Positions 27,209 to 64,000 of a stretch of DNA of 64,000 nt are shown piece by piece. This stretch comes from Tetrahymena thermophila SB210 (lineage: Eukaryota > Ciliophora > Oligohymenophorea > Hymenostomatida > Tetrahymenidae). The stretch covers positions 1,169,537 through 1,233,536 of the forward strand of contig NW_002476418.1 of NCBI RefSeq assembly GCF_000189635.1. The letters are read 5' to 3'. The position numbers and the translations under genes were made by a program. Positions within the stretch are counted from its first letter, which is position 1, and each line of letters begins with the position of its first letter. The notes beneath the pieces were generated by a model. That model searched no databases. It had not been told where the DNA came from and saw nothing but the letters and a program-made list of their open reading frames with translations.

Positions 27209-29238
27209 ATGATAGTTTTATTGACATTCATTCTTTTCTTGAAATCAGCATGTAAATTTAGAAAAATAAAAGAAAAATTTTAGCAAAATTATTTTAAAGT
27301 AAGCATAATTAACACTGAGACTTACACTAAATATATAGAATTCAATTTAGATAAATGTGCTTACACTGGTTTTCTCACCATAATTGGAAGTTATACATGC
27401 CCTATTTAAGTATAAGTAGGTAGTCCAGGTTAGTAATTGACTCTCTCAATTGCAATTAATAGAATTGTAATTTAAAAGATATTTTTTTTAATAATAAGAT
27501 TATAAATGAATTTATAATTAATTTATTTGTAAATAGGTACCAAATGATTAATTATAATCAGCTACAAGTTTTTTATTAAGTAGTGAGTGCATACTATAAA
27601 ATAAGTGTATCTCTTTTTTTATATAAAAAAAATTTGACGAAGCATTCAATCCAGAACTAACCAGCTCATTAAATAAAACTGGAATTAACTATTCAAATAC
27701 AGTAATTATTTTGCATCTCTCCCTTACATTTAATTTGTTCATTCAAATATTTATTAAAAATTAATTCTTATGAATTCTTTTAAGAATGTAATAAAGGTGT
27801 TTTGATAAAAATCTCATTTTAATAATTTTTGTTTGAATTGTGGTATTTATATAAATAAAAAGATAACTTAAACCGCTTTTCACAATTTTTAAAGCATTTA
27901 TTAAGTATAAATTTATTAATAATGAATAATAATTTTAATGCTTGAAATAGTTATAATATTTTGTTTTAAACTAGATCAACGGAACGATATTAAGGATTAA
28001 TGGTGAATATTAATCAGATTTATTTTAGATTTCAGAAGAAGTAGAATAAAAAATTAGGATTCCATTTGTTTTAGTTAATTCAATGTGGGCTTTCAATGCA
28101 GTAAAATCTTATCTGCACTTATTTCAAATAAAAAATATTTATTAATTAATTTTATAAATTATAAAGCCTACTTTTGGAATACTAAATTTTGAAAGACATA
28201 ATATGAACAGTTTAATACTTTAAGGATATTTGCAAAATTAACTCAAAGTAAAATATATTTTATCCCTTCTAATTATAAATGTTTTTAACTAATAAATAAA
28301 TAAATAAATAAATAAAGACACCTAAGTTTGCCATAACAATTGAAAATAAAGTAGGAAAGATTATATATGACGAAATACCAAAATATTTAAATAATGCAAT
28401 TGAGATAAAAACGAAATCTTCTGACTTATGGGTGAAATATCACTTTAAAATATTTGGATTTTTTATTAAATCTTTTTAAATTTATAAAAAGGATTTAAAA
28501 ATTACAGGTATGATTTTGGAAGATAAAGATGTATTACCATTAGCCCATTTTTAATCATTAGAATTCACTTTATATCCATTCACCTAATTACCCAAAGGTA
28601 GCCAAATATTAACTATCATGCATAAAAATCTAACTTATACAAATAAAATTAAAGGGATAGTTAATTATCTATTAAAGAAATACTCACATTTACTCATTAA
28701 GCACGAGAACACAGTGTAATTGTAAGATTGTGAGCACTGTAGTTGCTTGGAAAAACTTAATTTTCCTGATCTGAAAATTTATACAGAAAAAGTAATGATC
28801 ACTTTAACACCAAAATAATACTTTTCAGAGAATTAGAGTAAAAATATTTGCTAAATTGTAATTTCGATGGATAAAATTATGCTTTCAAGTAAATTTTATC
28901 AAGATTATCCTACTATTTTTAATACAAAAAACGGATCTATAGCTATTTTTAAGTAAATTATTAATGTTTTTTTTGAAAGTAATTAATTTAATTTTTATCA
29001 AAGTGCAACTAGTCTATAAATTATTGAAGCAAAATGTTTCTATTGTTTCTTTTTTGTAAGCTCAGTAATCTTTGTATTTTTAATAGATACCTTAATTAAA
29101 TGTGAGCATTTTGATTATATAAGTAGAAACGAAAAAGTTAAAATGAATCCTCTTAATATCTTAACTTAAGAGAGTGAGAAATCTAATTAAATTTTAAGTA
29201 AAATAATTGAGCACCAATAAACTTCGAATATATTTTGA
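27209..29238 (+). CDS. Pepsin-fold (A1-like) membrane protein lacking catalytic Asp motifs, copy 1, 444 aa, 9 exons
   Basis: Exons 27209-27251, 27300-27466, 27537-27701, 27975-28100, 28167-28247, 28318-28431, 28492-28597, 28655-28952 and 29004-29238 sum to 445 codons. The signal peptide is MIVLLTFILFLKSA. A1 aspartic-protease landmarks follow in order: IQVQVGSPGQQLTLSI, where DTGS would come next but the sequence is AINRI; FNPELTSSLNKTG; FGILNFER (for DGILGLGR); LTPKQYF; and a final strand pair (YPTIFNTKNGSIAIF). The second DSGT is replaced by FTLYPFTQLPK. A transmembrane segment lies near residues 377-397 with a tail of about 47 residues. Both catalytic aspartates are therefore absent. Inferred: a non-enzymatic, membrane-anchored binding protein at the surface or in the secretory pathway. 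The family call rests on motif order only. Confidence 0.8.
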
Positions 29239-31161
29239 TTCTTTAATAAAGATTTACTTAACTTAAGCTAATAAATTACAAATTAGCTAAATTAATTTTA
29301 TATAAATTACTTCTATTCACTTTACTTACTAGTTTAATTACTTCATATATTTATTATTTATTATCTTTCAAAAAAATCTTAACAATATTTTTCTTTGGAG
29401 ACAGATATTTTTTATTTCGTACCTCTGCTTAATAAATATTTATTTCATATTTTAATAATCATATTTAAAATTTTTTATATATGTTTTTTATTGATCTCAT
29501 TACTTTACATATAAATTAATAAGATTTTTTTGAATATATAATCAGAATATTATTTTTTTAAATTAATATTCTTTAATATGTTTTGGATTTCATTCATTTT
29601 TAAAAAGTTTTTATGAAGATTTAAATTTTTAAAAATGATAAAAGCTAATTCTATTTTTCCAGTATATTTTAAAAATTAATTTGATAAATTTTCATAATTT
29701 TAGCAATAAGTATAAAATTATATGAAAATAATTTAAGAAGTTCCAAAATCTTTAAAATATATTTGTGAACAAAATAGACTTTTGTAAATAAATAATAAAA
29801 AACTAACTAACCTTAGATTTAAATGCGCAACCTCTTATTTCTCAATATTTTCTTAATTTGTTATTATTAAATTTTTTGTATGATTACGCAATATTAAAAA
29901 TTTACCTTGTGGTGGTTGTGGTAGTCTAGCACTTTCCCTCTAAAAAAGTAGTAAATTTTGAATTTAGTTTACTTATCTAATCAAAAAAAAGATCTTTTAT
30001 TAAATTAAAAGAAAATTCTTTTAATTACTTATTTTCTTTCAATTTAAAAATGGAATTATTTTTATGAAAATATGATTTAAAATTCATTTTATTGTTTTAT
30101 TTTGTTGTTGGGAGTTTTAAAAATGTTTTATTAAGATAATTTTAAAAATTATGATATAAAAATAATCTTTGATATGCTTTTTGGTATTTGTTATTTACAA
30201 AATACTAAAATATGTGGTAAAGTAAGCAAATATGATCATTAATGCTTTAACTTAATTTGAAGATGATACATAGATTTTATCTATTAGTTTCCCAAATTTT
30301 TTTGATAGTAGATCTTTCCTTTAAAAAGAATTAACAAATTTTAATTTAATAATCCCTTAAGAGCTATAAGCTTAATTAATAATGAGAAATGATATATTAA
30401 TTAATGATCTTAAGGATATAAGATTGAATGAATAAATAAATAAGAAAAAGTTAAATCATTTTGGTTACTTCTTAATCAAAATACTTTTTGTAATTATGGA
30501 TGTAAAATGAATGATTAATTAATATTATTTACTCAAAATTTTTATATTATATATCTATTACTTTTAAGAAAAATCTACTCTAAAAAATTAAGCTATTTAA
30601 TTTATTAACAAACGATTTTATTTATACAAAAATAAAATAATATTTTGTTTTTATTCTAAATATCTTTAACAAGTTTTATTCATTTGTTAAAAAAATAAGC
30701 ATCAAAAGAAAATCAAAAAGATTTTTTTCACCTCTAACTAATTAATGAGAGAAAATCTTATATTTTATCATCAAGAAAATAAGTGAGAGGAAATTTTCCC
30801 TTTCATCGATGAATTAGTAATTAAACTTTTTTTAGCACAATATAAAGTCTCTAAAAGCAAACTAATCATCCAAAATATTATTATAAAATTCATTAAAGAA
30901 ATACTATAAAAGGGTACTATGAACTCATTAATGTGTATGTAAGAATTTTATGCATTCATAAGTAAATAAGTGATAAAAATATTTATTTTCTCAAAATTCT
31001 TTTTTTATTTTTTTAGAAAGTAAAAAATACTTTTTTTTCAATAAAGTATTGATAAAAAAGATCAAATATATATAACAAATATTAATATAGACTCAAAAAT
31101 ATTAAATATCATAATTTATTTTGATAAAATAATTCAAAAAATTAATTTTTTAAATTAAAAA
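29239..31161. repeat. Intergenic unit between pseudoprotease copies 1 and 2
   Basis: About 29600-31161 repeats as 33295-34864. Part of it matches the leader of copy 1. The section 29240-29600 is specific to this interval or shared in part with 36990-37080. No coding sequence recognised. Confidence 0.6.
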
Positions 31162-33149
31162 ATGATAGTTTTATTGACATTCTTTTATTTTTTTAGATCA
31201 GCACGTAAATCCTAAAACAAAAGAATAATTTTAGCAAAATTTTTTTAAGTAAGCATAATTAGCACTGAGAGTTATCCTAAATATATAGAATTCAATATAG
31301 ATTAATGCACTTACACGGGCTTTATCGCCATAATTGGAAGTTATGTATGTCCTATTCAAGTATAAGTAGGCAGTCCAGGTTAGTAATTGGCACTCTCAAT
31401 TGCAATTAATAGGATTGTAATTTAAATGATATATTTTTTAAAAAGAAGATTATAAAATGAATAATAATTTTTTATTTATAAATAGCTACCAAAGGAAGAA
31501 ATATAATCAGGGATGAGTTTTTTATTAACTAATGAGTGTATACTTAAGAATAAGTGTATGTCTTTAATTCCATTAAAAAAATTTGGTACAGCATTTAATC
31601 CAGAACTAACCAAATCATTAAATAAAACGGGAATTAATTATTCAAACATGGTAATTATTTTGCATTTGTCTCTTAAATTTCATTTAATAATTCAAATGTT
31701 TATTAAAAATTAATTCTTATGAATTCTTTTAAGAATGAAAATAAAGAGCTTTTACCAATATCTTAGTTTAATAATTTTCTTTGATTTGTAGTATTTAGAA
31801 AGAAAAAAAAGAAATATTCTACTTTTCACTATTTTTAATTATTTAATAATAAATTTAAGGATTGAAATTAATATAATATTTACTTTAAAGATCAATGGAA
31901 GTATATAAAAAATAAGCGGCGAATATTCATCAGATTTATTTTAGATTTCAGATGAAATAGAATAAAAAATTAGGATTCCATTTCTTTTAGTTGATTCAGT
32001 GTAGACTACGAATGTAAAGCTTTATTTGCTCTTTTTTCAAATAAAAAATATTTATAAATTATAAAGCCTATTTCAGGAATACTAAATTTCGAAAGACATA
32101 ATATAAACAGCTTAATACTTTAAGGATATTTGCAAAATTAACTCAAAGTAATTAATATATTTTATATATTCTAATTACAAATATTAAAAACTAATAAATA
32201 AATAAATAAATAAATAAATAAAGACACCTAAGTTTGCCATAACAACTGAAAATAAAGTAGGAAAGCTTTATTATGATGAAATACCAAAATATTTAAATAA
32301 TGCAATTGAGATAAAAACGAAATCTTCTGATTTATGGGTGAAATATTACTTTAAATATTTGGATTTTTAATTAAATTTTTATTAAATTTATAAAAAGGAT
32401 TTAAAAATTATAGGTTTGCTTTTGGAAGATAAAGATGTATTACCTTTAGCTCATTTTCATTCATTAGAATTCACTTTATATCCATTCACCTAATTACCCA
32501 AAGGTAGTCAAATTTTAACTGTTATGTATAGAAATTTAACTTATACAAATAAAATTAAAGGGATAGCTAATTACCTCTTAAAGAAATACTCGCATCTACT
32601 CACTAAGCACGAGAACGCAGTGAATTTGTAAGATTGTGAGCACTGTAGTTGTTTGGAAAAACATAATTTTCCTGATCTGTAAATTTATACAGAAAAAGTA
32701 ATGATCACTTTAACACCAAAATAATACTTTTCAGTGGATTAGTATGCAAATTTTATTTGCTAAATTGTAATTTCGATGGATAAAATTATGCTTTCAAGTA
32801 AATTTTATCAAGATTATCCTACTATTTTTGATACAAAAAATGGGTCTGTAGCCATTTTTAAGTAAATTATTATTTTTTTTTCAAAATAATTAATTTAATT
32901 TTTTTTTATAAAAGTGCAATTAGTCTCTAAATTATAGAAGCAAGATATTTATATTATTTCTTTTTTGTAAGCTCATTTATCTTTGTATTTTTAATAATTA
33001 TCTTAGTTAAATATGAGCATTTTGGTAATATGAGCAGAAGCCAAAAAGCTTAAATGATTCTTCTAAATATCTTAACTTAAGAGAGTGGGAAATCTAATTA
33101 AATTTTAAGTAAAATAATTTAAGACCAATAGTCTTAGAATATTTTTTGA
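31162..33149 (+). CDS. Pepsin-fold pseudoprotease, copy 2, 9 exons
   Basis: Same nine-exon structure as copy 1. ATG is at 31162-31164; exon 1 ends at 31204, exon 2 is 31250-31416, exon 3 is 31486-31650, exon 4 is 31891-32013, and TGA is at 33147-33149. Signal peptide MIVLLTFFYFFRSA, then IGSPGQQLALSIAINRI with no DTG. Exon 3 gives the Cys pair region ECILKNKC and FNPELTKSLNKTG. The C-terminal half keeps the CEHCSCLEK cysteine cluster, LTPKQYF and the membrane span. The exon frames are intact with no TGA, so it is probably expressed. It is 3.7 kb from copy 3 and very similar to it, including the leader. Confidence 0.78.
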
Positions 33150-34864
33150 TCCTTTAAAATATATTTAGATAACTTAACCTAATTAATTACAAATTAAATA
33201 AATTAATTATTTATAAATTTTAATTGTATTCACCTTATTTACTAGTTTAATTACTTCATAATATTTATTATTTATTATCTTTCAAATAAATCTTAAAAAG
33301 TTTTTATGAAGATTTAAATTTTTAAAAATGATAAAAGCTAATTCTATTTTTCCAGTATATTTTAAAAATTAATTTGATAAATTTTCATAATTTTAGCAAT
33401 AAGTATAAAATTTTATGAAAATAATTTAAGAACTTCCAAAATCTTTAAAATATATTTGTAAACAAAATAGACTTTTGTAAATAAATAATAAAAAATTAAC
33501 TAACCTTAGATTTAAATGCGCAACCTCTTATTTCTCAATATTTTCTTAATTTGCTATTATTCAATTTTATGTATGATAACGCAATATTAAAAATTTACCT
33601 TGTGGTGGTTGTGGTAGTCTAGCACTTTCCCTCTAAAAAAGTAGTAAATTTTGAATTTAGTATACTTATCTAATTTATAAAATATCTTTTATTAAATTAA
33701 AAGATAATTCTTTTAATTACTTATTTTCTTTCAATTTAAAAATGGAATTATTTTTATAAAAATATGATTTAAAATTCATTTTATTGTTTTATTTTGTTTT
33801 TAAGAGTTTTAAAAATGTTTTATTAAGATAAATTTAATAAATGATGATATAAAAATAATCTTTGATATGCTTTTTGGCATTTGTTATTTATAAAATACTA
33901 AAACACGTGGTAAAGTAAGCAAATATGATCATTAATGCTTTAACTTAATTTGAAGATGATAAGATTTTATCTATTAGTTACCAAAATTTTTTTTATCGTA
34001 GATCTTTCCTTTAAAAAGAATTAACAAATTTTAATTTAATAATCCCTTAAGAGCTGTAAACTTAATTAATAATGAGGAATGATATATTAATTAATGATCT
34101 TAAGGATATAAGATTGAATGAATAAATAAATAAGAAATAGCTAAATCATTTTGGTTACTTCTTAATCAAAATACTTTTTGTAATTATTGATGTAAAATGA
34201 ATGATTAATTAATATTATTTACACAAAATTTTTATATTATCTATCTATTACTTTTAAGAAAAATCTACTCTAAAAAATTAAGCTATTTAATTTATTAACA
34301 AACGATTTTATTTATACAAAAATAAAATAATATTTTGTTTTTATTCTAAATATCTTTAACAAGTTTTATTCATTTGTTAAAAAAATAAGCATCGAAAGAA
34401 AATCAAAAATATTTTTTTCACCCCTAACTAATTAATGAAAGAAAATCTTATATTTTATCATCAAGAAAATAAGTGAGAGGAAATTTTCCCTTTCATCATA
34501 ATTAACTTTTTTTAGCACAATACAAAGTCTCTAAAAGCTAACTAATCATACAAAATTTTATAATAAAATTCATTAAAGAAATACAGTAAAAGGGTATTAT
34601 GAACTCATCAATGTGTATGTAAGAGTTTTATGCACTCATAAGTAAATAAGTGATAAAAATATTTAAAGTAATATTGGTAGAACCAAACATTTTCTCAAAA
34701 TTCTTTTTCTATTTTTTTAGAAAGTAAAAATTACTTTTTTTCAATAAATTATTGATAAGAAAGATCAAATAGATATCACAAATGTTAAGATAGATTCAAA
34801 AATATTAAATATAATAATTTATTTTGATAAAATAATTCAAAAAATGTATTTTTTAAATTAAAAA
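33150..34864. repeat. Intergenic unit between pseudoprotease copies 2 and 3
   Basis: Near-copy of 29600-31161, including the conserved gtggtggttgtggtagtctag block at 33601 and the gaaattttccctttcatc block at 34480. No gene seen. Confidence 0.6.
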
Positions 34865-36850
34865 ATGATAGTTTTATTGGTATTCTTTTATTTTTTGAGA
34901 TCAGCGCGTAAATCCTAAAACAAAAGAATCATTTTAGCAAAATTTTTTTTAAAGTAAGCATAATTAGCACTGAGAGTTATCCTAAATATATAGAATTCAA
35001 TATAGATTAATGTACTTACACTGGCTATCTCACCACAGTTGGAAGTTATGTATGTCCTATTCAAGTATAAGTAGGCAGTCCAGGTTAGTAATTGACTCTC
35101 TCAATTGCAATTAATAGGATTGTAATTTAAATGATATATTTTTAAAAAATAAGATTATAAAATGAATTATTGTTTATTTTTAAATAGCTACCAAAGGAAG
35201 AAATATAATCAGGGATGAGTTTTTTATTAACTAATGAGTGTATACTTAAGAATAAGTGTATGTCTTTAATTCCATTAAAAAAATTTGGTACAGTATTTAA
35301 TCCAGAACTAACCAAATCATTAAATAAAACGGGAATTAATTATTCAAACATGGTAATTATTTTGCATTTGTCTCTTAAATTTCATTTAATAATTCAAATG
35401 TTTATTAAAAATTAATTCTTATGAATTCTTTTAAGAATGAAAATAAGGAGCTTTTATCAATATCTTAGTTTAATAAATATTTCTTTGATTTGTAGTATTT
35501 AGAAAGAAAAAAAGAAATATTCTGTTTTTCACTCTTTTTAATTATTTAATAATAAATTTAAGGCTTGAAATTAATATAATATTTACTTTAAAGATCAATG
35601 GAAGTATATAAAAAATAAGCGGCGAATATTCATCAGATTTATTTTAGATTTCAGATGAAATAGAATAAAAAATTAGGATACCATTTCTTTTAGTTGATTC
35701 AGTGTGGACTTCGAATGTAAAGCTTTATTTGCTCTTTTTTCAAAATAAAAAATATTTATTAATTAATTTTATAAATTATAAAGCCTATTTCAGGAATACT
35801 AAATTTCGAAAGACATAATATAAACAGCTTAATACTTTAAGGATATTTGCAAAATTAACTCAAAGTAATTAATATATTTTATATATTCTAATTACAAATA
35901 TTAAAAACTAATAAATAAATAAATAAAGACACCTAAGTTTGCGATAACAACTGAAAATAAAGTAGGAAAGTTATACTATGACGAAATACCAAATTATTTA
36001 AATAATGCAATTGAGATAAAAACGAAATCTTCTGATTTATGGGTGAAATATTACTTTAAATATTTGATTTTAGATTAAATTTTTATTAAATTTATAAAAA
36101 GGATTTAAAAATTATAGGTTTGCTTTTGGAAGATAAAGATGTATTACCTTTAGCTCATTTTCATTCATTAGAATTCACTTTATATCCATTCACCTAATTA
36201 CCCAAAGGTAGTCAAATTTTAACTGTTATACAAAAAAATCTAACTTATACAAATAAAATTAAAGGGATAGTTAATTATCTCTTAAAGAAATACTCTCATT
36301 TACTCATTAAGCAAGAGTACAAAGTGAATTTGTAAGATTGTAAGCACTGTAGTTGTTTGGAAAAACTTAATTTACCTGATCTGAAAATTTTTACAGAAAA
36401 AGTAGTGATCACTTTAACACCAAAATAATACTTTTCAGTGGATTAGTATGCAAATTTTATTTGCTAAATTGTAATTTCGATGGATAAAATTATGCTTTCA
36501 AGTCAATTTTATCAAGATTATCCTACTATTTTTGATACAAAAAATGGATCTGTAGCAATTTTTAAGTAAATTCTTTTTTTTTGAAAATAATTAATTTAAT
36601 TTTTTTTTATAAAAGTGCAATTAGTCTCTAAATTATAGAAGCAAAATATTTCTATTATTTCTTTTTTGTAAGCTCATTTATCTTTGTATTTTTAATAATT
36701 ATCTTAGTTAAATATGAGCATTTTGGTAATATGAGCAGAAGCCAAAAAGCTTAAATGATTCTTCTAAATATCTTAACTTAAGAGAGTGAGAAATCTAATT
36801 AAATTTTAAGTAAAATAATTTAAGACCAATAGTCTTAGAATACTTTTTGA
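34865..36850 (+). CDS. Pepsin-fold pseudoprotease, copy 3, 9 exons
   Basis: ATG at 34865-34867, TGA at 36848-36850. Every splice boundary of copies 1 and 2 is found again, including the first intron (gtaaatcct...aaag) that must be removed to stay in frame here, which fixes the intron model for the whole family. The signal peptide is MIVLLVFFYFLRSA. The first motif is SIAINRI in place of DTG, the exon 3 product has FNPELTKSLNKTG, and the second catalytic motif is again FTLYPFTQLPK. It ends with a transmembrane segment and a polar tail. One substitution in the cysteine cluster changes CEHCSC to CKHCSC, leaving all Cys in place. Confidence 0.78.
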
Positions 36851-38225
36851 TCCTTTAAAATATATTTAGATAACTTAAGCTAATTAATTACAAATTAACT
36901 AAATTAATGAAATATAAATTTTAATTGTATTCACCTTCTTTACTAGTTTAATTACTTCATAATATTTATTATTTATTATCTTTCAATAAAATCTTAAAAA
37001 TTATATTCATTCAAAAAGACAGATATTTCATATCCCTTTACCTCTTATTAATAAATATTTATTTTATACTTTAATACTCATATAAGAAAATTCTTTTAAA
37101 AAAAATGGAGTTATTTTTATAAAAATATTATTTAAAAATTCATTTTATTGTTTTATTTTGTTGTTGGGAGTTTTAAAAATGTTTTATTAAGATAAATTTA
37201 ATAAATGATGATATAAAAATAATCTTTGATATGCTTTAAGGCATTTGTTATTTACAAAATACTAAAATATGTAATAAAGTAAGCAAATATGATCATTAAT
37301 GCTTTATCTTAATTTGAAGATGATACATAGATTTTATCTATTAGTTTCCGAAATTATTTTGATAGTAGATCTTTTCTTTAGAAAGGGATAACAAATTTTA
37401 ATTTAAAAATCCTTACTTAAAGAGCTATAAACTTAATTAATAATAAGAATGATATATTAATGATCTTAAAGATATAAGATTGAATGAATACATAAGAAAT
37501 AGCTAAATCATTTTGGCTACTTCTTAATCAGAATACTTTTTGTAATTAGTGATGTAAAATGAATGATTAATTAATATTATTTACAGAAAATTTTTATATT
37601 ATCTATCTATTACTTTTAAGAAAAATCTACTCTAAACAATGAAGCTATTTAATTAATCATTAACGATTTTATTTATTTTCTAGAAAATAAAATAATATTT
37701 TGTTTTTATTCTAAATATCTTTAACAAGTTTTATTCATTTTTTAAAAAAATAAGTATCGATAGAAAATCAAAAATATTTTTTTCACTTCTAGCTAATTAA
37801 AGAAAATCTTATATTTTATTATCTAGAAAATAAGTGAGAAGAAATATTCCCATACATTGATGAATTAGTAATTATACTTTTTTAGCACATTAACTAATCA
37901 TACAGAATGTTATTATAACATTCATTAAAAAAATACTGTAAAATGGTACATGGTACTATGAACTCATTAATGTGTATGAATGAATTTTATGCACTCATAA
38001 TTAAATAAGTGATAAAAATATTAATAGTAATATTGGTAGAACTATATATTTTCTCAAAATTCTTTTTCTATTTTTGAGGAAGTAAAAAATGCTTTTTTTT
38101 CAATAAATTATTGATAAGAAAGATCAAATATATTTATCACAAATATTAAGATAGATTCAAAAATATTAAATATCATAATTTATTTTGATAAAATAATTCA
38201 AAAAATTAATTTTTTAAATTAAAAA
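36851..38225. repeat. Intergenic unit between pseudoprotease copies 3 and 4 (shortened)
   Basis: Homologous to the other inter-copy units from about 37090 on, but it lacks the roughly 300 bp holding the gtggtggttgtgg block. This accounts for the shorter 3.36 kb spacing. No gene seen. Confidence 0.55.
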
Positions 38226-40202
38226 ATGATAGTTTTATTGACATTCTTTTATTTTTTCAGATCAGCACGTAAATCCTAAAACATAAGAATAATTTTAGCA
38301 AAATTTTTTTAAAGTAAGCATAATTAGCACTGAGAGTTATTCTAAATATATAGAATTCAATATAGATTAATGCACTTACACTGGCTTTCTCGCCGTATTT
38401 GGAAGTTATGTATGTCCTTTTCAAGTATAAGTAGGCAGTCCAGGTTAATAATTGACACTCTCAATTGCAATTAATAGGATTGTAATTTAAATGATATATT
38501 TTTAAAAAAGAAGAATATAAAATGAATAATTATTTATGTATTTATAAATAGCTACCAAAGGAAGAAATACAATCAGGGATGAGTTTTTTATTAACTAATG
38601 AGTGTATACTATAAAGAAAGTGTATTTCTTTAATTCCATTCAAATAATTCGGTACAGCATTTAATCCAGAACTAACTATATCATTAAATAAAACGGGAAT
38701 TAATTATTCAAACATCGTAATTATTTTGCATTTGTCTCTTAAATTTTATTTAATAATTCAAATGTTTATTAAAAATTAATTCTTATGAATTCTTTTAAGA
38801 ATGAAAATAAAGAGCTTTTACCAATATCTTAGTTTAATAATTTTCTTTGATTTGTAGTATTTAGAAAGAAAAAAAAGAAATATTCTACTTTTCACTATTT
38901 TTAATTATTTAATAATAAATTTAAGGCTTGAAATTAATATAATATTTACTTTAAAGATCAATGGAAGTATATAAAAAATAAGCGGCGAATATTCATCAGA
39001 TTTATTTTAGATTTCAGAAGAAATAGAATAAAAAATTAGGATTCCATTTCTTTTAGTTGATTCAGTGCGGACTTGGAATGTAAAGTTTTATTTGCTCTTT
39101 TTTCAAATAAAAAATATTTATTAATTAATTTTATAAATTATAAAGCCTATTTCAGGAATACTCAATTTCGAAAGACATAATATAAACAGTTTAATACTTT
39201 AAGGATATTTGCAAAATTAACTCAAAGTAATTAATATATTTTATAAATTCTAATTACAAATACTAATAAATAAATAAAGACACCTAAGTTTGCGATAACA
39301 ACTGAAAATAAAGTAGGAAAGCTTTATTATGATGAAATACCAAAATATTTAAATAATGCAATTGAGATAAAAACGAAATCTTCTGATTTATGGGTGAAAT
39401 ATTACTTTAAATATTTGGATTTTAATTAAATTTTTATTAAATTTATAAAAAGGATTTAAAAATTATAGGTTTGCTTTTGGAAGATAAAGATGTATTACCT
39501 TTAGCTCATTTCTATTCATTAGAATTTACTTTATATCCATTCACCTAATTACCCAAAGGTAGTCAAATTTTAACTGTTATGTATAGAAATCTAACTTATA
39601 CAAATAAAATTAAAGGGATAGCTAATTACCTCTTAAAGAAATACTCGCATCTACTCACTAAGCACGAGAACACAGTGAATTTGTAAGATTGTGGGCACTG
39701 TAGTTGTTTGGAAAAACATAATTTTCCTGATCTGAAAATTTTTACAGAAAAAGTTATGATCACTTTAACACCAAAATAATACTTTTCAGTGGATTAGTAT
39801 GCAAATTTTATTTGCTAAATTGTAATTTCAATGGATAAAATTATGCTTTCAAGTCAATTTTATCAAGATCATCCTACTATTTTTAATACAAAAAATGGAT
39901 CTGTAGCCATTTTTAAGTAAATTATTTTTTTTTTGAAAATAATTAATTTAATTTTTTTTTATAAAAGTGCAATTAGTCTCTAAATTATAGAATCAAGATA
40001 TTTATATTATTTCTTTTTTGTAAGCTCATTTATCTTTGTATTTTTAATAATTATCTTAGTTAAATATGAGCATTTTGGTAATATAAGCAGAAGCCAAAAA
40101 GCTTAAAAGATTCCTCTAAATATCTTCACTTAAGAGAGCGAGAAATCTAATTAGATTTTAAGTAAACTAATTGAAGACCAATATTCTTTGAATAATCTTT
40201 GA
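38226..40202 (+). CDS. Pepsin-fold pseudoprotease, copy 4, 9 exons
   Basis: ATG at 38226-38228, TGA at 40200-40202. Same architecture as copies 1-3: signal peptide MIVLLTFFYFFRSA, SIAINRI at the lost first catalytic site, FNPELTISLNKTG, FGILNFER-type turn (here SGILNFER), the CGHCSC cluster, LTPKQYF and the C-terminal membrane span. It is the last of the tight tandem set. Beyond its stop the shared downstream sequence continues only to about 40360. I see no frame-breaking change. Confidence 0.78.
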
Positions 40203-41247: not shown

Positions 41248-41877
41248 ATGAAAATCAACTAAATTTTTAGGGGTGTAGTCTTTTTGCTTTTTGTATTTAG
41301 CATCTGTGCATTAAAATTGAATTGCGATGAAAAACTAGTATGCCCAGACTAATCAGATTAAACCTGCTAACTTTAAAGAAGCTAATTTGATACTTGTGTT
41401 TCTTCAAGGTGTGCCAATGTGGTGGTAAATTAACTAAGTAATGACATGATAGATTGTTTCTTTTAAACGTGTAGACCAAATATGCCATATCTATAAAATG
41501 TTTATTATTATATTCCTTGTTTAAAAGAGGAGTAAGACTAAGGTTCATCTTCTGGGGACATTAAGATAAATGATAAAAAATTATCTGAAATTATGAAATG
41601 TGATCAAATTTTGAATGATAAATGCAAAAATTATTCTTCAGACTGCCCATAAAAACTTAAATAATTATAATCATGTGGAAAAGCTCTCTGCAATCTTCAT
41701 AATAACTTAGAAATTTCTAAAATAAGAAATTGTATGTCAAAGCAGTGCTAGAGTGAAGATAAAAATATTAATGAGATGGTAGATTAATTTTTTGGTTGTT
41801 CTGATGTTGCTGTTAACTCTAGTAATCTTAATATTCCTTTGCTATTATTATTTTCTTACTTAATAATGTTGCTTTGA
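41248..41877 (+). CDS. Small cysteine-rich secreted protein, probably GPI-anchored, 209 aa
   Basis: A single exon from ATG (41248-41250) to TGA (41875-41877), 210 codons with TAA/TAG as Gln. Residues 8-22 form a signal peptide core (GVVFLLFVFSICA). The body carries about 19 cysteines, in patterns such as CDEKLVCPDQSDQTC, CFFQTC and CGKALCNLH, suggesting a disulfide-stabilised extracellular fold. The last 14 residues are hydrophobic after a small polar stretch (NSSNLN then IPLLLLFSYLIMLL) and stop with no tail, which is the layout of a GPI-attachment signal. I recognise no named family. It is not the classic ciliate immobilisation antigen, which has longer periodic CxxC repeats. Its place within the surface-protein-rich segment fits a cell-surface role (inference). 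Confidence 0.8.
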
Positions 41878-43030
41878 TTTAATAATTCCAAATAATTAAT
41901 ATATGAAGTTAATTATTTAGTTAGCTAATTATTTATGTTTGTTTTATTTTAATTTTTTCGAATACATTTTTAATCTAAATTCTCAACATATTCTCTAAAT
42001 TTTTTGAATCTAAAATCAAATGGATATTTAATTTATAATAAGGGTAATACAAAATTTGTTATTTTAAGACTTCAAAATTTTATTTTTCTGCAAAAATTTT
42101 AGATTTTTACTTCAAAAAATTTTATAAAAATAAAATCTTTCAAAAGTGTACTTTTTTAAATATTTACCCTATATATATACCTAAATAAATTTTCTTCAAA
42201 AATGACTAATTGGATTTGAGTATAATTAAAGATAGATAATATAAATATTGTAATATTCACTCTATTACTCATTAATGGACTAAAATAGAAAAATCTAAAT
42301 TACTAAAATTAATAGAAATTAATTTTATAAATATATGACTACCAATTTTAGATTCTTGCTATTTATATAAGAATATGCTTTTTTTGAAATATTAAGATTT
42401 AATAATCAATGATACATCAACTTTTTTGTGATATCTCTTACTAAAAGCAAATTTATAAATATGTATGTATGTATTTGATGATTATTTAAATTTTTTTGTT
42501 CCTTTTATCCAGATTAATTTGATAAAAATTAAATTATTTCATATACTTCTTAATAATTAAATTTACATAAATTTCTATCCAATATTTTTTAAATAATAAA
42601 TATAAAAATAAATGATATAAGAAAAAGCCTATTATTACAATCTAGAATAAGTAAATATTTATTTTATTATATTATTATTATTTAAATTTCTTTTTTTTAA
42701 AAAAAAAGTTTTTAAGCTCTTCACTTTAATCATTTTAGGTTCTCCATATTGATATGAAAAAATAGTATATTAGATTTATTAATACTATTATTAATGCTTT
42801 TTTATATTCAATTTTGATGTGATTTACAATTTTTTTTAATTTGAAATGATCAGCTACATATATATATTTTTATATTTTATTTATACAAACATTTTTAAAT
42901 AATTTTAACTTAATTTTCATTCAATTTACATTCATTTTTACATTAATTTATTTTTTTTATTTGATATATTTTCTTCATTTTTTCCTTCTAACCAACTAAA
43001 AATTTTTTCTTCAATATTTATATTTAAAAG
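41878..43030. other. Intergenic, AT-rich; possible orphan first exon
   Basis: Mostly low-complexity. At 42612-42650 an ATG opens 13 codons followed by gtaaatat, a possible first exon, but its phase (0) does not match the phase required by the first LRR exon at 43031, so I do not join them. Confidence 0.25.
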
Positions 43031-45374
43031 TGGAAATTAAATTGGTGACGAAGGCGCATCAAGCTTAGGTTCTGGTTTAGGAAAATGCACTAATCTCTTA
43101 AATTTGATACTTCATCTAAGGTAAAAACAGTTTTAGATTGTTATTTTTCAATATAAAAATAAATTTAAAACAAAAAACAAACTCTTTTAATTTATTTATT
43201 TATTTATTAGCTTTTTATTTGATTGATTTTTTTTATTTATTCTGCTTCTTTTTTTATTTATTTGTTTTTTAATTTAACACATTTTTCATTTTAAACTTTT
43301 ACTTTTATTATTAATTCATTCATTTCTTATTAATTAATATTTCTTTTTTCCTACAAACTCGTTAATTAACTATTTTTTTTTTCTTCAACATTTAAAAAGG
43401 TCTAATTAAATTAGTGATGAAGGAGTTTTATAATTAGGTTCTGGCTTAGGAAAGTGCTCTAATCTCTCTAATTTGATACTTGATCTTTAGTAAAAACAGT
43501 TTATTTGTTTTGAATTGTGATATTTTTGAATATAAAAAATGACATTAAAACAATCTTACTAACTCTTTTATTAATTAGCATTTAATTGATTTATTTTTCT
43601 TATGTCTGTCTATTTAATTTCTTTATTTTTTTGTTAATTTAGCTCATTTTTGAATTTCCAACTTTTGGTTTTATTATTAAATTAATTAATTAATTTCATA
43701 TTATTTCATTTTTTTTTCTTTTAACTAAATAATTAACACTTTATTTTTTCTTCAATATTTAATAAAGGGAAAATTAAATTAGAGCAATTGGTACATCAAA
43801 CTTAGGTTATGGTTTAGGAAAATGCACTAATCTCTCAAATTTAACACTTAATCTTGCGTAAAAACAGTTTATTTATTTTGGATTGTGATATTTTTAAATA
43901 TAAAATTGAATTTAAAAGTATATTACTAACTCTTTTACTTTAATTATTTATTAGCTTTTTATTTGATTTGATTTATTTTTATTTTATTATGTTTGTGTTT
44001 ATTTATTTATTTCTTTGTTGATTTAGCACATTTTTTATTTACAACTATTTCTTTTGTTATTAATTAATTCATTTCTTATTATTTCATATTCTATATATTC
44101 TTTCTTAAATAATTAAAAAGCTTGAATAAAATTGGTGCAATTGGTGCATCAGGCTTAGGTTTATGGAAATGCACAAATCTCACAAATTTGATACTTAACC
44201 TTTGGTAAAAGCATTTATTTGTTTTGGATTGTGATATTATTGAATATAAATATAACTAACTATTTTAATTTATTTATTAGTTTTTTATTTGATTTATTTT
44301 TTTATAAAATTATTTTGCTTTTGTTTTTGTTTGTTTTTTATCTGTGTATGTTTATTTAGTTGTTCATTTTACATTTTCAACTTTTATTATTAATTAATTC
44401 ATTTCTTATTTTTTCTTCACTTTTTCCTACTAAGCTACTTGTTAAATAATTTATTTTTTATTAAATATTTAAAAAGGGAAAATTAAATTGGCGGTGAAGG
44501 TGCAACAGTTTTAGGTTCTGATTTAGGGAAGTGCACTAATCTCTAAAATTTGGCACTTCATCTAAGGTAGAAAAATGGTTTACTATGTTTTTGAATATAA
44601 AAATTAATTTACAGCAATATAACTAACTCTTTTAATTTATTTATTAAGAGGATTTTTTTTTTAATTTAACTTCATTTTTCATTTTCAGCTTTTTTTTTAT
44701 TATTTGTTTTTTAATATATTTTCTTCATTTTTTACTTCTAACTAACTAATTAACTCTTTTTTTTTAATATTTAAAAAGTTTGAATAAAATTGACGCAATT
44801 GGCGCATCAGGCTTAGGTAACGGTTTAGGAAAGTGCACTAATCTCTTAAATTTGACACTTAATCTTTGGTAAAAACATATTATTATTTTTGATTGTAATA
44901 TTATTGATTATAAAAACGAATTTAAAACTATAACTAACTCTTTTAATTTATTAGTAGCCTTTTATTTGATTTATTTTTCTTTTTGTGTTTATTTTTTATT
45001 TATTTACATATGTCTTTGTCTGTTTGCTAAATTAACTCATTTTTTCATTTTCAACTTTTGCTTTTATTATTAATTAATTTTTTATTATTTCATATTTTTC
45101 TTCATTTTTTCCTTTTAACTAACAAATTAACTAAATATTTTTTCTTCAATATTTAAAAAGGTCTAATTAAATTGGCTAAGAAGGAGCTTCATGCTTAGGT
45201 TCTGGTTTAGGAAAGTGCCCTAATCTTTCAAATTTGTCACTTGATCTTTAGTAAAAACAGTTTATTTGTTTTAGATTGTTATATTTTTCAATATAAAAAT
45301 GAATTTAAAGCAACTCTTTTATTTATTTATTAGATTTTTATTTGATTTATCTTTTCTTCTTCTTCTTGTGTTGT

Positions 45375-45417
<43 letters not shown>

Positions 45418-46899
45418 TTTCTTAGTTAGCTTTTTATTTCAAACTTTTGCTTTTAATTTATTTCTTATTTTTTTCATTTTTTCTTTCTAACTGATAAAAA
45501 AGCTCTTTATTTTTTCTCTAATATTTAAAAAGGAATAATCAAATTGGTGCAATTGGTGCATCAAGTTTAGGTTCTGGTTTAGGAAATTGCGCTAATCTCT
45601 AAAATTTAAAACTTGAACTTTAGTAAAAATTGTTACTTTTTTGGATGAAGATTTTTTTTAATATAAAAATGAATTTATTAAAACAGTATAACAAATTCTT
45701 TTAATTTGTTTATTATTTTATTATTTGATTTATTTTTCTGCTTGTATTTTTAATTATTTCTTTATTTATGAGTTTTTTTATTAATTTATCTCATTTTTTC
45801 ATTTTCAACTTTTGCTTTTATTATTAGCTCTATTCTTATAATTTCAATATTTTTCTCCTTTTTTCCTTCTAATTTATTAATCAGCCATGCATTTTTTCTT
45901 AAATACTTAAAAGGGGAAATTTAATTGGCAATGAAGATACTCCAGACATAGCTTCTGGTTTAGGAAAGTGCACTAATCTCTCAAATTTGACACTCCATTT
46001 AAGGTAAAAACAATTTATTTATCTTTCATTTTCAGCTTTTATTTTTATTATTACAAAATTAATTTCTGATTATTTAATTTTTTTTTTTTCATTTTTACCT
46101 TTTAAATAACTTAACAATATATTTTTCTTAAATATTTAAAAAGTTTGAATAAAATTGGCACAGTTGGTGCATCAGGCTTAGGCTCTGGTTTAGGAAAGTG
46201 TACTAATCTCTCAAATTTGACACTTGATCTTGGGTAAAAACAATTTATTTAATTTAGATTGTGATATTTTTGAAAAAAAAAAAAATTTTAACAAATAACT
46301 AATTTTTTTTTTATTTGCTTGTTTATTAATTTAACTCATTTTTTCATTTCCAACTTTTAATATTATTATTAATTAATTAATTTCTTATTATTTGATAATT
46401 TTTCTTCATTTTTCCTACTAACCAACTGATTGAAATTAAATTTTTTCATCAATATTTAAAAAGTTGGAATGAAATTGATGCAATTGGCGCATCAGGCTTA
46501 GGTTCTTGTTTATGGAAATGTACAAATCTCTCAACTATGACACTTAACCTTTTGTAAAAATAGTTTATTTGTTTTGATAGAAATATCTTTTAATAAATGA
46601 ATTTAAAACAATATAAAAAACTCTTTAATTTATTTATCTATTAACTTTTTATTTGATTTATTTTATTTATTTGTAAATTTAACTCATTTTTCATTTTCAA
46701 CTTTGGCTTTTTTTATTAATTGATTATACATACAATTTCATATTATTTCTTCAATATTTCCTTCTTACTGACTAATTAGCTTTATATACATTCTTCAAAA
46801 TATAAAAAGAAGAAATTAAATTGGTGAATAGGGTGCATCAGACTTAGGTTTTGGCTTAGCAAAGTGCACCAATCTCTCAAATTTAACACTCCATATAAG
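43031..46899 (+). pseudogene. Orphan array of 12 leucine-rich-repeat exons
   Basis: Exons 43031-43120, 43400-43489, 43768-43857, 44121-44204, 44477-44566, 44779-44868, 45161-45250, 45533-45622, 45914-46003, 46144-46233, 46464-46553 and 46810-46899. Eleven are exactly 90 nt; the fourth has lost 6 nt. Each is preceded by aaag or aaaaag and followed by gtaaaaa/gtagaaa. Each needs two bases from the previous exon, so all introns have the same phase and any exon can be skipped or duplicated without a frameshift. Each encodes one 30-residue repeat close to NQIGxxGASxLGSGLGKCTN followed by LxNLxLxL, a ribonuclease-inhibitor-type LRR common in ciliate proteins. No start codon exon, kinase domain or stop exon could be placed on either side, so I treat it as a partial gene. 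A real gene with unrecognised terminal exons remains possible. Confidence 0.6.
45379..45420. repeat. (TTTA)n microsatellite inside an LRR-array intron
   Basis: Perfect or near-perfect tttatttattta tract in the intron between LRR exons 7 and 8. The apparent ORF across it is only a translation of this repeat. Confidence 0.8.
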
Positions 46900-48725
46900 G
46901 TAAAAACAATTTATTTATTTTGGATTATGATATTTTTTAATATAAAAATTAATTTAAAACAAAAAACAAAAAACTAACTAACTAACTTATTCATTCATTA
47001 ATTCTTTAATTTATTTATTAGCTTTCTTTTTATTTTTTATTGATCTAAATTTTTATTCATTTGCCAATTTAAAATAAAATATTTTATTTAAAAATTTTAT
47101 TCTATTTATTTTTTTAGTAATTTATAATAAATTATATTAATAGTGAAGACAAAATTAAGATATCAAAATAATTAAAAGTAAGGTGCCTTAAATCAAAAAG
47201 ATTAGTTGACTTAAAAATAAAATAAATATGATAAAAAAGTAGTGAAAAAGTACCAAAAAATATAAATATATTTGAGTACTTTAATATTTTATGTTTTATT
47301 TTATAAACTGATAAATTCAAGTAAAATATAGATAGATAGATAGATAGATTTATTATTATTTTTATATTTATATTTATATTTATATTTATAAATATCATAT
47401 TTATTTTGCTAAATATCTAAATATCTTATTAAAAAACAAGATTAAAAATAAATTTTACTTAAATAAAGTAATTCTACTAAAATCAACCCAGAACTTTTAC
47501 CAAAAACGATTTAAGTTTTTATTAATTGCTAGTGTCTTACGTTGCATTATTAAATTAAATAAGTCCAAAGCTTTATTTCTTAGATATAAATTAAATGTAT
47601 TAATCATGGAAATTAATATTATTTTAAGCTAAAGTAAAGGTTAAATAAAAATTAAAATTTATATAATATATTTCAAAAATTTTAAATATTTAGACATAAT
47701 TAATATTTTTCATCTAGGAAAAGAGAGGCATTAAATATTAGGGTGATTCTTAATTAAAAAGGATTAACGATAAATAAGAAATTCTATTATATAAATAATT
47801 TGAATTGAAGTTTGTCAATAAAAAAACTATTTTGTTATTCTAGATAGATATAAATTCCATTATTTGAAGTATATTAATATTTATCATTAAAAAAATAAGA
47901 TTAATTATGATGCACATCTTAATGGATTTAATTATACAAAAAATTAAGAAATTTTTAGAAATTAATCATACTTAAACTAAATCGTAGAATATGATATTCG
48001 TATGAAAAAAATTCATCTAATAGAAAAATTTTAATTAAATATATTTGTTATTTTTAAATTTACAGAAATAAATATCATGAGTCGCAATTATTAAAACAGA
48101 TGTATAGACTTTTAAAATACTTTGTTAATTTTTTTGTGGTAAACTTCAAAAAATTAAATCGTAGACTATATATGTATGATGTTTGTATGAATGTAAATCA
48201 TCCAATAGAAAAATATTAATTAAATATGCTTGCTATTTTTAAAAGTTTACAGAAATAAATAATATGATACACATTAATTAAAATAGATAAATAAGATTTT
48301 TTTTTGGGGTAATTACAGACAAATTCTGTTATGTATGTAATAAATTTACAAATTTATATGTATATTTTTTCTTTTGGTTTTTATCAGAAATTTGAATAAG
48401 CATTTGGTCTACATAAATATAAAAGAAAACTCAAAAGTCTATTTATTTTAAAAAAGCTCTAATGGTAAAAGCTTTACACTAATAGTCCTATTATCTATTT
48501 TTTTTATTGCGCCTTACTAGATACCAATAAAGGCATAATTATTACCATTTAGGCTATCTATCATATGTATTTGACTATAAAATTTATATGGTAAAATCTT
48601 GAGATATTTATTTATTTAAAAACTTAATTTGGAGAAGATATTAACTTTAAAAAAATTTGATTTGCACAAAAATAATAAAAAAAATTTATATTATAATTAA
48701 CTAAAAATAAATTTTTAACAAGTAA
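46900..48725. other. Intergenic with microsatellites and a 180-bp direct duplication
   Basis: A (tagatagata) tract at 47331-47349 and a (tttatattta)n tract at 47357-47390. About 47965-48110 and 48150-48300 are direct repeats (aaatcgtaga-tat, cat-c-aatagaaaaat, ttacagaaataaat in the same order). No gene recognised. A weak splice-like exon at about 47114-47170 could be a 3' exon of the LRR array but is unconvincing. Confidence 0.45.
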
Positions 48726-50982
48726 ATGAAAGTATTTTTTTTATTCATAGCTCTAATCCTTAAAATAAATAGTAATTTTTTACATTTAAGCAGAGAAGAT
48801 TCATCAATATATATTTATTTATCTATACATAGCATGTTTTTCTAGCAATCAAGATAGAGTTAAAACAATAGATTTCAATTTAAATGGATGTGTTTATTCA
48901 GGATTCTTAGACATTCCTGGAAAATTAATATGCCCAATAGATTTATTGATAGGAAGTCCAAAGCAGAAAATAACCCTTTCTCTTGCAATTAACAAAATTG
49001 TAATATAAAAATGACTAATTAAAATACATTTGTTATTTTTTATAAAAAGCCTTTTTTCTAAAATCTCAAGAGCACTAATATAATTATAAACAAATAATGT
49101 AAATTTAATGAATGTCCTTATTATACGCACTCTTTTAATCGTGGGGCTACATTCTTTTCTGAACAAAGTTTGACTTTGAAAAAGACTGGAGATTTCTATT
49201 TTTCTGATGTAAATTATAATAGCTTATTTATTTTAGATTTTTTAGAAAATTTGAAAAAAGGTTTATAAGAATTTATTAGCTATTCACAAATTTTACTTTA
49301 TTAAAATTCCCTTATTTGATAAATGGATTTGAGCTAATAATTTGCTAATCATATTTTCATTAGAACTAACCATTTTTGATTTAAAAGTAAAAAGAATATC
49401 CAAAAAATTAAGTGGAGTATCAATCTGATTTATTTTAATTACATTATTAAAGTAGTTAATAAATAAAATAAAATATTTTTTTATCTTTTAGCAACTTAAT
49501 TTTTAGAAAATTTGAAAAAAGCTTGATAAAAATTTATTAATAATTCACAAATTTTGCTTTATTAAAATTCCCTTTTTTGATAAATTGATTAGAGCAAATA
49601 GTTTAATTTTGATATTTTTATTAGAACTAACAATTTTTTATTTAAAAGCAAAAAGAATATCCAGTAGTTTAAGGAGAGTATCAATCTGATTTAATTTAAT
49701 TTCATCAAAGTAGTTAATAAGATATAATAATTCCTTTCTTATCTGTTAGCAATTTTACATGGATGAATAGAGTAAATAAATTATAAATTTTATGGAAATT
49801 TTATTAATTTTATTAAATAAAATATAATAGATTTATGATGGCATATTAAATTTAATAAAAGATAATGCAAACAATATGATATTGCAAGGATACTTGCAAA
49901 AGAAGCTTAAAGTAAGATTTAATTAATTAATTAATTTAAATTAATTAAAATATTATTTTAAAGACTCCAAAATTTGCTTTAACAGTTGAGAAATAAGTAG
50001 CAAAATTTATATATGATGAAATGCCTCAAATATGGTATAATGCATTAGAATTAAAAACAAAATCTTCAGATAGCTGGGTAAACTATATCTAAAAATATTT
50101 TCAAGGAATCATAATTTTTTTCTGAAATAAACAAAGGATTTCAAGATAATTGGTTTGACATTTGGCGGAGATAATTTACTACCACTTGCTCACTATCAAA
50201 CTATTGAATTAAGTTTAAATTAATATACTCAATTTCCAAAAGGTAATTAATTAATTATCATGTATTTTCTAATAAATTAATATTAAAATATTTTTTGATT
50301 AATAGGCATTTTTAACTATTTTATGAAAAAATATGATAAATTATTTACAGTCTTTGGAAAGATAGCTTTTTTATAAAATTGTAAAAATTGTGACTGCTTA
50401 GATTAATATAACTTTCCTGAAATTAAAATTTATACAGAGAAAGTTATGATCAAGCTCACTGCAAAACAATATTTTAATGTAAATAAAGCAAATAGTACTA
50501 AATGCTGTATAGAATAATCACTTGATAAATTCTATTTGTCACAATCCTTTTACTAGCATTATTCTGTAATTTTCGATACAAAAAATGAATCATTAGCTTT
50601 TCCTTAGTAAATAAAAAATATTTTTGTTTAAACCTTTATTCAACAATTTTTTTATTTTATTTGTAGAGCAGAATAAATTAATATTATGGAGATACAATTC
50701 TTTCAGTACTTTATCATTATAAGCTCAATGACTATGATAGCTTTAATATATATTGTAATAAAATTTGAAATGTTTCAATACAGAATGAAAAATACATAAT
50801 AACTATAAATATCAATAAACTAAAAAACTGTTTTAAATCAACGTATTTCTTAATAAAACCAACAAGATTAGAATGAAAAGATTGTCTAACATTTGACAAA
50901 TTTAATTTAGACTGATGAAAAAAAACAATAAATTACAAAATAATTAATTCTTTCATAAATGATTATTAGAAACAAACAATGA
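48726..50982 (+). CDS. Diverged pepsin-fold pseudoprotease, copy 5
   Basis: Same intron positions as copies 1-4: exon 1 48726-48771, exon 2 48833-48999 (167 nt as in the others), exon 3 49050-49208, exon 4 49649-49771, with TGA at 50980-50982. Signal peptide MKVFFLFIALILKI. LLIGSPKQKITLSLAINKI replaces the DTG strand and LNQYTQFPKG the second catalytic strand, so it is again catalytically dead by sequence. It keeps TLKKTG, DGILNL, the CKNCDC cluster, LTAKQYF and a C-terminal membrane span (IIISSMTMIALIYIVI). The cytoplasmic tail is longer and Gln/Asn-rich. Overall it is much more diverged from copies 1-4 than they are from one another, so it represents an older duplication. Confidence 0.72.
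49215..49760 (+). repeat. Internal tandem duplication (about 270 bp) containing exon 4 of copy 5
   Basis: About 49225-49490 and 49495-49760 are direct repeats of one another. Each includes an acceptor-like tttaaaag and an open 5' part of exon 4 (reading EYQSDL). Only the second copy keeps the 3' end of the exon and a usable gtaaat donor (49772), so the first looks like a truncated exon stranded in an enlarged intron. Confidence 0.65.
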
Positions 50983-51189
50983 ATGATGAAAAAAAATGTA
51001 AAAGTATTCCACAATATTTAATTCTTATTAATCCATAGTTATTTATTTATTTTAATTAATTAATTTATTTATTTTAGTTACCTTATATATTTCTTTATAT
51101 ACTATCAATTATATAATTTAAGAACCTTAAAAAAATTGATTTTTATTTTTTAAAAGTGATTTAAATTTTTAAAAATTGTTCAATTTATT

Positions 51190-51560
51190 TTTTTTCATTT
51201 CAGAAAATTTAGAATATTAATAAGTATATCATTATATCAATAGAAACAATTAATACAATAGATTTAATTTGCTAACTTAACGGTGCAGTTAATTCTTTGA
51301 TATTTGATTTATATGTATAATGGTAATAGAAAATAATTCTTTCTTTATCAATTAATAAAAGCTTATTAAAAAATAAATAATCAATAAAATGATAATAATT
51401 CATATAAAAAAAGCAATTTTAAAAGTTCAGCAAAATTAATAATAAATAAGCAAAATATTTAAGCGAAAGTCATTATTTTTACCACTTTCTCTAAAGCATA
51501 GAGTTTTCTTTAAATAATTCAGCAAACTTTTATGTTTTTAATGTAAATTATTAATTCTTT
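51190..51560 (+). pseudogene. Decayed sixth pseudoprotease fragment
   Basis: 51240-51365 resembles exon 2 of copy 5 (acaatagattta, ctttctttatcaattaataaaa), and about 51410-51540 resembles its exon 3, with no start codon, frame or splice sites retained. It lies directly downstream of copy 5, as expected for an old tandem duplicate. Confidence 0.45.
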
Positions 51561-63911: not shown

Positions 63912-64000
63912 GGGGTTGGGGTTGGGGTTGGGGTTGGGGTTGGGGTTGGGGTTGGGGTTGGGGTTGGGGTTGGGGTTGGGGTTGGGGTTGGGGTTGGGGT
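63912..64000 (+). repeat. Telomere, (GGGGTT)n
   Basis: Fifteen near-perfect ggggtt repeats run to the window end with the G-rich strand 5' to 3' toward the end, as at a true chromosome terminus. The G4T2 unit is the Tetrahymena-type telomere. The repeat is pure from its first unit, so the junction at 63911/63912 is the telomere-addition site. Confidence 0.97.

Follow-up and report, generated by a model that had tools for sequence, protein, structure and literature searches.

Tandem genes for predicted membrane-anchored, probably inactive relatives of pepsin-type peptidases near a ciliate chromosome end

We analysed a 64,000-nucleotide stretch of Tetrahymena thermophila DNA (the window) that carries five tandem genes for predicted membrane proteins. 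The proteins are very probably derived from pepsin-type (family A1) aspartic peptidases and devoid of A1-type activity. Judged from their sequences, they combine the three features expected of an A1 pseudopeptidase: descent from family A1, loss of the catalytic motifs and selective retention. Contig C129 terminates with the window. The genome searched comprises 101.0 Mb in 445 contigs; genome-wide family counts are lower bounds, and coordinates without a contig label are positions within the window.

All five gene copies could be modelled (Table 1). Copies 1–4 consist of nine exons of near-equal sizes, which read in the ciliate code with zero internal TGA codons, and an earlier note on this DNA had correctly proposed four near-identical tandem genes with a spliced product of 444 residues. 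Its one diverged but intact member, copy 5, was likewise recovered, with nine exons, a 470-residue product and the eight intron phases of copies 1–4 (1,0,0,0,0,0,1,2). In the six pairwise comparisons among copies 1–4, all six gaps within exons are multiples of 3, whereas 57 of the 62 gaps within introns are not. The nine-exon gene models are therefore supported.

For comparison with A1 peptidases, we used two profiles: P1, composed of copies 1–5 and the paralogue L030, and P2, composed of 12 genes of a sister group from the same genome (L026 and L063–L073). The canonical A1 set was derived from a genome search with PF00026, which gave 67 matches (66 over the cut-off; about 30 genes by our reading). 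Cutting out 30 loci yielded 13 open frames, ten of which have both catalytic motifs in one frame; L045 (degenerate motifs) and L033 and L036 (one motif in frame) were dropped. HHalign matches P1 to the ten A1 proteins with a probability of 97.65 (E = 2.5e-12, 296 columns), P2 to the same set with 97.32, and P1 to P2 with 98.99; P1 and P2 combined (18 rows) reach 98.66, a value without shuffle control. Over 100 column shuffles each, the maximum is 0.83 for P1 and 1.73 for P2, and the reversed control gives 0.17. The profile–profile comparison that the earlier note had proposed as a check thus bears out the A1 relationship, and chance resemblance of motifs was rejected (0.83 versus 97.65). With the database size fixed at 40000, a profile of the A1 set lists copies 1–5 at E values between 3e-8 and 8e-5. 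Their scores of 23–34 bits compare with a maximum of 6.4 bits on shuffled proteins, 1767 of 1800 of which were scored.

The sister group and one intact A1 protein, L042, connect the window genes to known structures. All 21 PDB matches of the P2 profile are A1 proteins, the best being plasmepsin II (6.1e-7). BLASTP aligns copy 5 with L042 at 6e-13, without a gap across the second catalytic site; L042 matches plasmepsin IV at 6.9e-24 and scores best of the ten intact A1 proteins against the P1 profile. In an unrooted tree of 28 rows, a branch with support of 100/98 parts the six P1 and 12 P2 proteins from the ten A1 rows (the terminal branches are long for L030, L039 and L061). On this profile and alignment evidence, the window proteins are assigned to family A1 by descent, with both lobes covered.

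The window genes lack the two D-T/S-G motifs of an active enzyme. D-[TSN]-G is absent from every gene-strand frame of copies 1–5, introns included, and from every gene-strand frame of the stretches fetched for L077–L081. This frame scan of the five loci rules out a motif hidden in an intron or in a different frame of the gene strand. In all six MAFFT runs, the residue aligned with the second catalytic Asp of L042 is Phe in copies 1–4, whereas copy 5 has Leu and L030 has Ile. P1-only HHalign also assigns Phe to copy 1, the 18-row profile assigns Thr (a shift of one), and the 28-row alignment has a gap at this site; by register, the position is Phe/Thr in copies 1–4 and Leu/Ser in copy 5. Ungapped reading gives Ile in L077–L081 and L083, and Leu in L082. 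None of the 13 P1-type loci has Asp or Glu at either candidate position. An Asp has been retained by all 12 P2 genes, either in the second site itself or one residue away.

The first site has two candidate registers, one at SIAINRI near the end of exon 2, as chosen in the earlier note, and one in a loop at the start of exon 3. SIAINRI is obtained in five alignments, namely the 28-row alignment, the 18-row profile (at AIN) and three of the six MAFFT runs, two of which place the site at NRI and one at AIN; P2 alone aligns DTG to Y-F-G, in the stretch that matches the SIAINRI region. The exon-3 register is obtained in four, namely the other three MAFFT runs and P1-only HHalign, which puts DTG at residues 75–77 of copy 1, ungapped to the next Cys. 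In this loop, L078 and L079 read D-T-M, L082 reads D-T-N, and the window genes read S-A-T, S-G-M or S-T-N. In P2, the corresponding stretch reads x-L/F-G in 11 of the 12 genes, with D-L-G in L071 and L073 (our reading). The D-T of the three paralogues and the P2 pattern are a point for the exon-3 register; SIAINRI is a possible first site. The earlier claim that DTG/DSG is replaced at both sites therefore stands as far as the missing D-T/S-G motifs and the loss of the second-site Asp in 13 of 13 loci are concerned, and its placing of the first site at SIAINRI is possible, with five alignments for it and four for exon 3. Identical replacements in all intact copies, also claimed there, hold for copies 1–4; copy 5 differs, with SLAINKI and LSLNQYTQFP.

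Other features of the protein are retained. The A1-like motif order, the hydrophobic stretches at both termini and the Cys cluster that the earlier note had described are conserved in all five copies (the ends by hydropathy), and hydropathy peaks occur at both ends in 18 of 18 P1 and P2 proteins, on hydropathy only and with no cut-off set. In the window proteins, the A1-like body spans both lobes and has potential N-glycosylation sites, and the tail that follows the C-terminal hydrophobic stretch is 46 or 71 residues long. The motif CxxCxC is found in 18 of 18 P1 and P2 proteins and in L077, L078, L079 and L082; it is missing from L080, L081 and L083 and from all 13 canonical A1 open frames. 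A1 zymogens carry an N-terminal propeptide. Fewer residues precede the first G-S/T-P strand here than in L042 (its Gly lies at 55 and 43, against 79 in L042), which would be consistent with loss of the zymogen propeptide.

The family is much larger than the window set: elsewhere in the genome it has another tandem array, one isolated locus and the genes of the sister group. Genes of the P1 type comprise the five window genes and a possible remnant, seven loci in the second array (C51:173900-196400; L030, L077–L081 and L083), none of which has the second-site Asp, and one locus on C220. L030 is the sole second-array locus with a full spliced model, and L083 was read in part only. The sister group comprises 12 genes and one fragment (L026 and L063–L073, on C5, C153, C180, C313, C134, C17, C127 and C328). 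It resembles the window genes in lacking DTG, in its C-terminal hydrophobic stretch, in CxxCxC (12 of 12) and in its side of the tree, but its genes were read as single open frames, have an Asp at or near the second site and match A1 structures in the PDB directly. L042 (C160:491406-492329) shares with the window genes the A1 body, the C-terminal hydrophobic stretch, C-S-C and an NLP..F.TQE stretch, whereas it keeps both DTG and DSG, has more N-terminal sequence ahead of the first strand and was read as a single open frame. Viral contigs were scanned as well, and no relative was confirmed among them.

Selection was assessed from the ratio of non-synonymous to synonymous change (dN/dS) by NG86 with the ciliate code; the pairs are not independent. 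Among copies 1–5, where the earlier note had suggested this check, dN/dS is 0.28–0.57 in the ten pairs, with Fisher p < 0.05 in nine. Copy 5 is separated from copies 1–4 by a dS of 1.66–1.85, at a dN/dS of 0.28–0.30. For the second array, tblastn pieces were aligned to L030 (238–417 codons per pair); dN/dS is 0.18–0.51 in the 14 measurable of 15 pairs, with Fisher p ≤ 0.0017 in all 15. In P2, the seven tested of 66 pairs range from 0.17 to 1.05. Net purifying selection on the family is supported by these ratios.

We propose that the window products would be type I membrane glycoproteins of the cell surface or endomembrane, whose ectodomain would bind a partner, either a peptide or a protein, and leave it uncleaved. 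The fold would have been kept as a binding module, and tandem duplication near the chromosome end would supply variants. We give ligand binding an even chance of being the main role, with low confidence in any particular named ligand. For the family as a whole, we best infer a role in binding that is not enzymatic, held with confidence that is evenly balanced, and binding, decoy and receptor functions are not separable here. The selection for a non-enzymatic role that the earlier note had suggested is upheld in part: A1 ancestry, motif loss and purifying selection are supported, the non-enzymatic role is a fair suggestion, and the three functions it named are not told apart.

Several results weigh against this interpretation. 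HMMER finds no A1 family in Pfam at E up to 10 for the five window proteins, which do not reach the PF00026 gathering score, nor for the 12 sister-group proteins; the P1 profile alone matches no A1 structure in the PDB by HMMER, and L030 is not listed by the A1 profile at E up to 10. An AlphaFold prediction from contiguous exons 7–8 with intron 7 retained (four rows) has a predicted local distance difference test (pLDDT) score of 39.5, too poor for a fold search. The missing HMMER matches would suit proteins that are not A1 homologues and whose motif likeness arose by chance in A+T-rich sequence; the shuffle controls, the A1 structures matched by the sister group and the L042 alignment make this extremely improbable. 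Near the first site, D-T is preserved in three of the seven P1 paralogues that lie outside the window (L078, L079 and L082), and this, together with the Asp at or one residue from the second site in the 12 sister genes, would speak for catalysis that is residual or altered, like that of plasmepsin HAP, which retains one catalytic Asp and has a His in place of the other. For the window genes we regard such activity as quite improbable: their second position is Phe/Thr or Leu/Ser, they have no D-T/S-G, and by our reading the family as a whole shares no conserved acid around the first site.

On the side of selection, the dN/dS test for copies 2–3 is not significant (p 0.059), one P2 pair of the seven tested has a dN/dS of 1.05, and the exons of copies 2–4 are not clearly more conserved than their introns (exon versus intron divergence of 0.043 versus 0.021 for copies 2/4, 0.056 versus 0.052 for 3/4 and 0.034 versus 0.039 for 2/3). 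The P2 pair is L066/L068, of low divergence, which might be under relaxed or diversifying selection. The exon divergence, not clearly below that of introns, a dN/dS of about 0.5 in recent copies and the possible remnant could mean that the genes are mere by-products of duplication close to a chromosome end, under weak constraint, of little function and heading for loss. We consider this unlikely, since the frames of all five window copies are intact despite the divergence of copy 5 and its low dN/dS, and since dN/dS in the second array is 0.18–0.51, with Fisher p ≤ 0.0017 in every pair. A regulatory role is also conceivable, in which the proteins would act as pseudoproteases on active membrane-anchored A1 enzymes such as those like L042; they could be chaperones, dominant-negative partners or substrate sinks, much as iRhoms relate to rhomboids. 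The genome does hold an intact A1 relative with a hydrophobic C terminus and many A1 loci, but L042 lies on a different contig from both arrays, and we find this role doubtful as well. The preferred reading is still that of a binding module without enzymatic activity.

Dead A1 proteases occur in plants, among other organisms, and the pregnancy-associated glycoproteins of ruminants are not known to have a membrane anchor. In the cited passages, dead A1 proteases are described from ruminants and cockroaches (PMC2682831, PMC9541408). The pregnancy-associated glycoproteins are, like the window genes, a large A1 family (22 cattle cDNAs in the excerpt consulted), and many modern members are described there as having substitutions in the catalytic centre, such that activity may be precluded; they differ as secretory proteins of trophoblast cells, according to the cited excerpt (PMC9506649). 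The window genes do not belong to this mammalian placental secreted class, given their ciliate code, the GGGGTT telomere and the C-terminal hydrophobic stretch. The cockroach allergen Bla g 2 and Lma-p54 are also inactive aspartic proteases, and Lma-p54 'may have a binding function'; they differ as insect proteins for which the cited passages describe no amplified membrane-anchored array (PMC9541408). Plasmepsins rank among the top PDB matches both for the sister group and for L042, but they differ as active enzymes. Among ciliates, excerpts of the literature give counts of aspartic proteases, 14 for Ichthyophthirius and 48 for Paramecium (PMC3341644), and treat tandem duplicates together with genes specific to one species (Xiong et al. 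2019, PMC6564038). Two further excerpts, which report one aspartyl protease among the highly expressed genes of T. thermophila (PMC2636879) and seven aspartic proteases, all with active-site residues, in Babesia microti (PMC8621943), are not used as support. No report of dead A1 proteases in ciliates was found in titles and abstract starts of the open-licence literature. The window genes look like a new membrane-anchored, tandemly amplified dead-A1 lineage in a ciliate, unrecognised by Pfam.

About 15 GGGGTT repeats close the window (63912–64000), G+C content is 17–30% per 2-kb step, and genes end at TGA, with TAA and TAG read through. Repeats, codon use and low G+C fit a macronuclear chromosome end of a Tetrahymena-type ciliate. 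ARAGORN (bacterial code) and Rfam (gathering scores) gave no match in the window.

Table 1. Gene models, catalytic-site candidates and repeats of the array (window positions)
Feature	Position	Strand	Remark
Copy 1 (444 residues), exons 1–5	27209-27251, 27300-27466, 27537-27701, 27975-28100, 28167-28247	+	Spliced model, locus 27209..29238
Copy 1, exons 6–9	28318-28431, 28492-28597, 28655-28952, 29004-29238	+	No internal TGA; GT..AG introns
Copy 2 (444 residues), exons 1–5	31162-31204, 31250-31416, 31486-31650, 31891-32013, 32067-32147	+	Spliced model, locus 31162..33149
Copy 2, exons 6–9	32224-32337, 32398-32503, 32561-32861, 32915-33149	+	
Copy 3, nine exons, 444 residues	34865..36850 (first 34865-34907, last 36616-36850)	+	Spliced model
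Copy 4, nine exons, 444 residues	38226..40202 (first 38226-38268, last 39968-40202)	+	Spliced model
Copy 5 (diverged, 470 residues), exons 1–5	48726-48771, 48833-48999, 49050-49208, 49649-49771, 49831-49911	+	Locus 48726..50982
Copy 5, exons 6–9	49964-50077, 50137-50242, 50306-50606, 50667-50982	+	
First catalytic site of the earlier note, copy 1, end of exon 2: GSPGQQLTLSIAINRI	27419..27466	+	One of two registers
Rival first catalytic loop, copy 1, start of exon 3: VPNDQLQSATSFLLSSEC	27537..27590	+	HHalign, MAFFT and paralogue comparison
Second catalytic site, copy 1: EFTLYPFTQLPK	28561..28596	+	Phe in place of Asp (Thr with a one-residue shift)
Duplicate of copy 5 exon-4 region, inside intron 3	49239..49494	+	84% identical to 49500-49752 over 257 columns
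Possible remnant, exon-2-like only	~51183..51533	+	tblastn with copy 5, E = 0.010
86-bp tandem-unit block	25917-25993, 29890..29975, 33583-33668	+	83–100% identical; upstream of copies 1–3, respectively; strand is that of 29890..29975

The remnant gene of the earlier note could not be sustained. Three presumably chance matches score better in the same unfiltered tblastn search (8.4e-4, 0.004 and 0.008), and the remnant is therefore not established; statistical support is absent, and what speaks for it is the residue pattern. The duplicate upstream of exon 4 in copy 5 could be a dead or an alternative exon. By our search, the 86-bp block has no match in the genome beyond its three window sites.

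The nearest identified conserved gene upstream of the array is an open frame at 23568–24656 that matches HSP90 (Pfam E 1.4e-48). Three long, similar open frames lie on the minus strand (3–2828, 3562–7143 and 10160–13720; repeat families D10–D14); the latter two have an N-terminal hydrophobic stretch followed by a C-terminal protein kinase domain, and the three are perhaps tandem receptor-kinase-like genes. Downstream of copy 4, a small Cys-rich single-exon protein with hydrophobic N- and C-terminal ends is encoded at 41248–41877; it is possibly a surface protein with a glycosylphosphatidylinositol anchor. Between this gene and copy 5, about 12 diverged tandem units, mostly 300–380 nt apart, code for leucine-rich-repeat-like segments (42964–46948; GDEGASSLGSGLGKCTNLLNL) and perhaps form one leucine-rich-repeat gene with repeated exons.

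Intact, half-decayed and fully decayed A1 relatives coexist in one genome, and the path from enzyme to non-enzyme could therefore be tested; in a Tetrahymena-type host, knockouts and tagging may be feasible. As a tentative and rather speculative extension, ciliates might have made an ancient membrane A1 peptidase into a large class of surface receptors; in this genome the class would have 25 loci or more, some of them in the two tandem arrays and others in smaller clusters or standing singly. The former cleft would recognise peptides or proteins of prey, microbes or partners, tandem duplication would provide variants, and catalysis would have decayed step by step. If this is true, the decay would be traceable from L042, which has both motifs, through the sister group and the one-Asp paralogues to the window genes, which have none.

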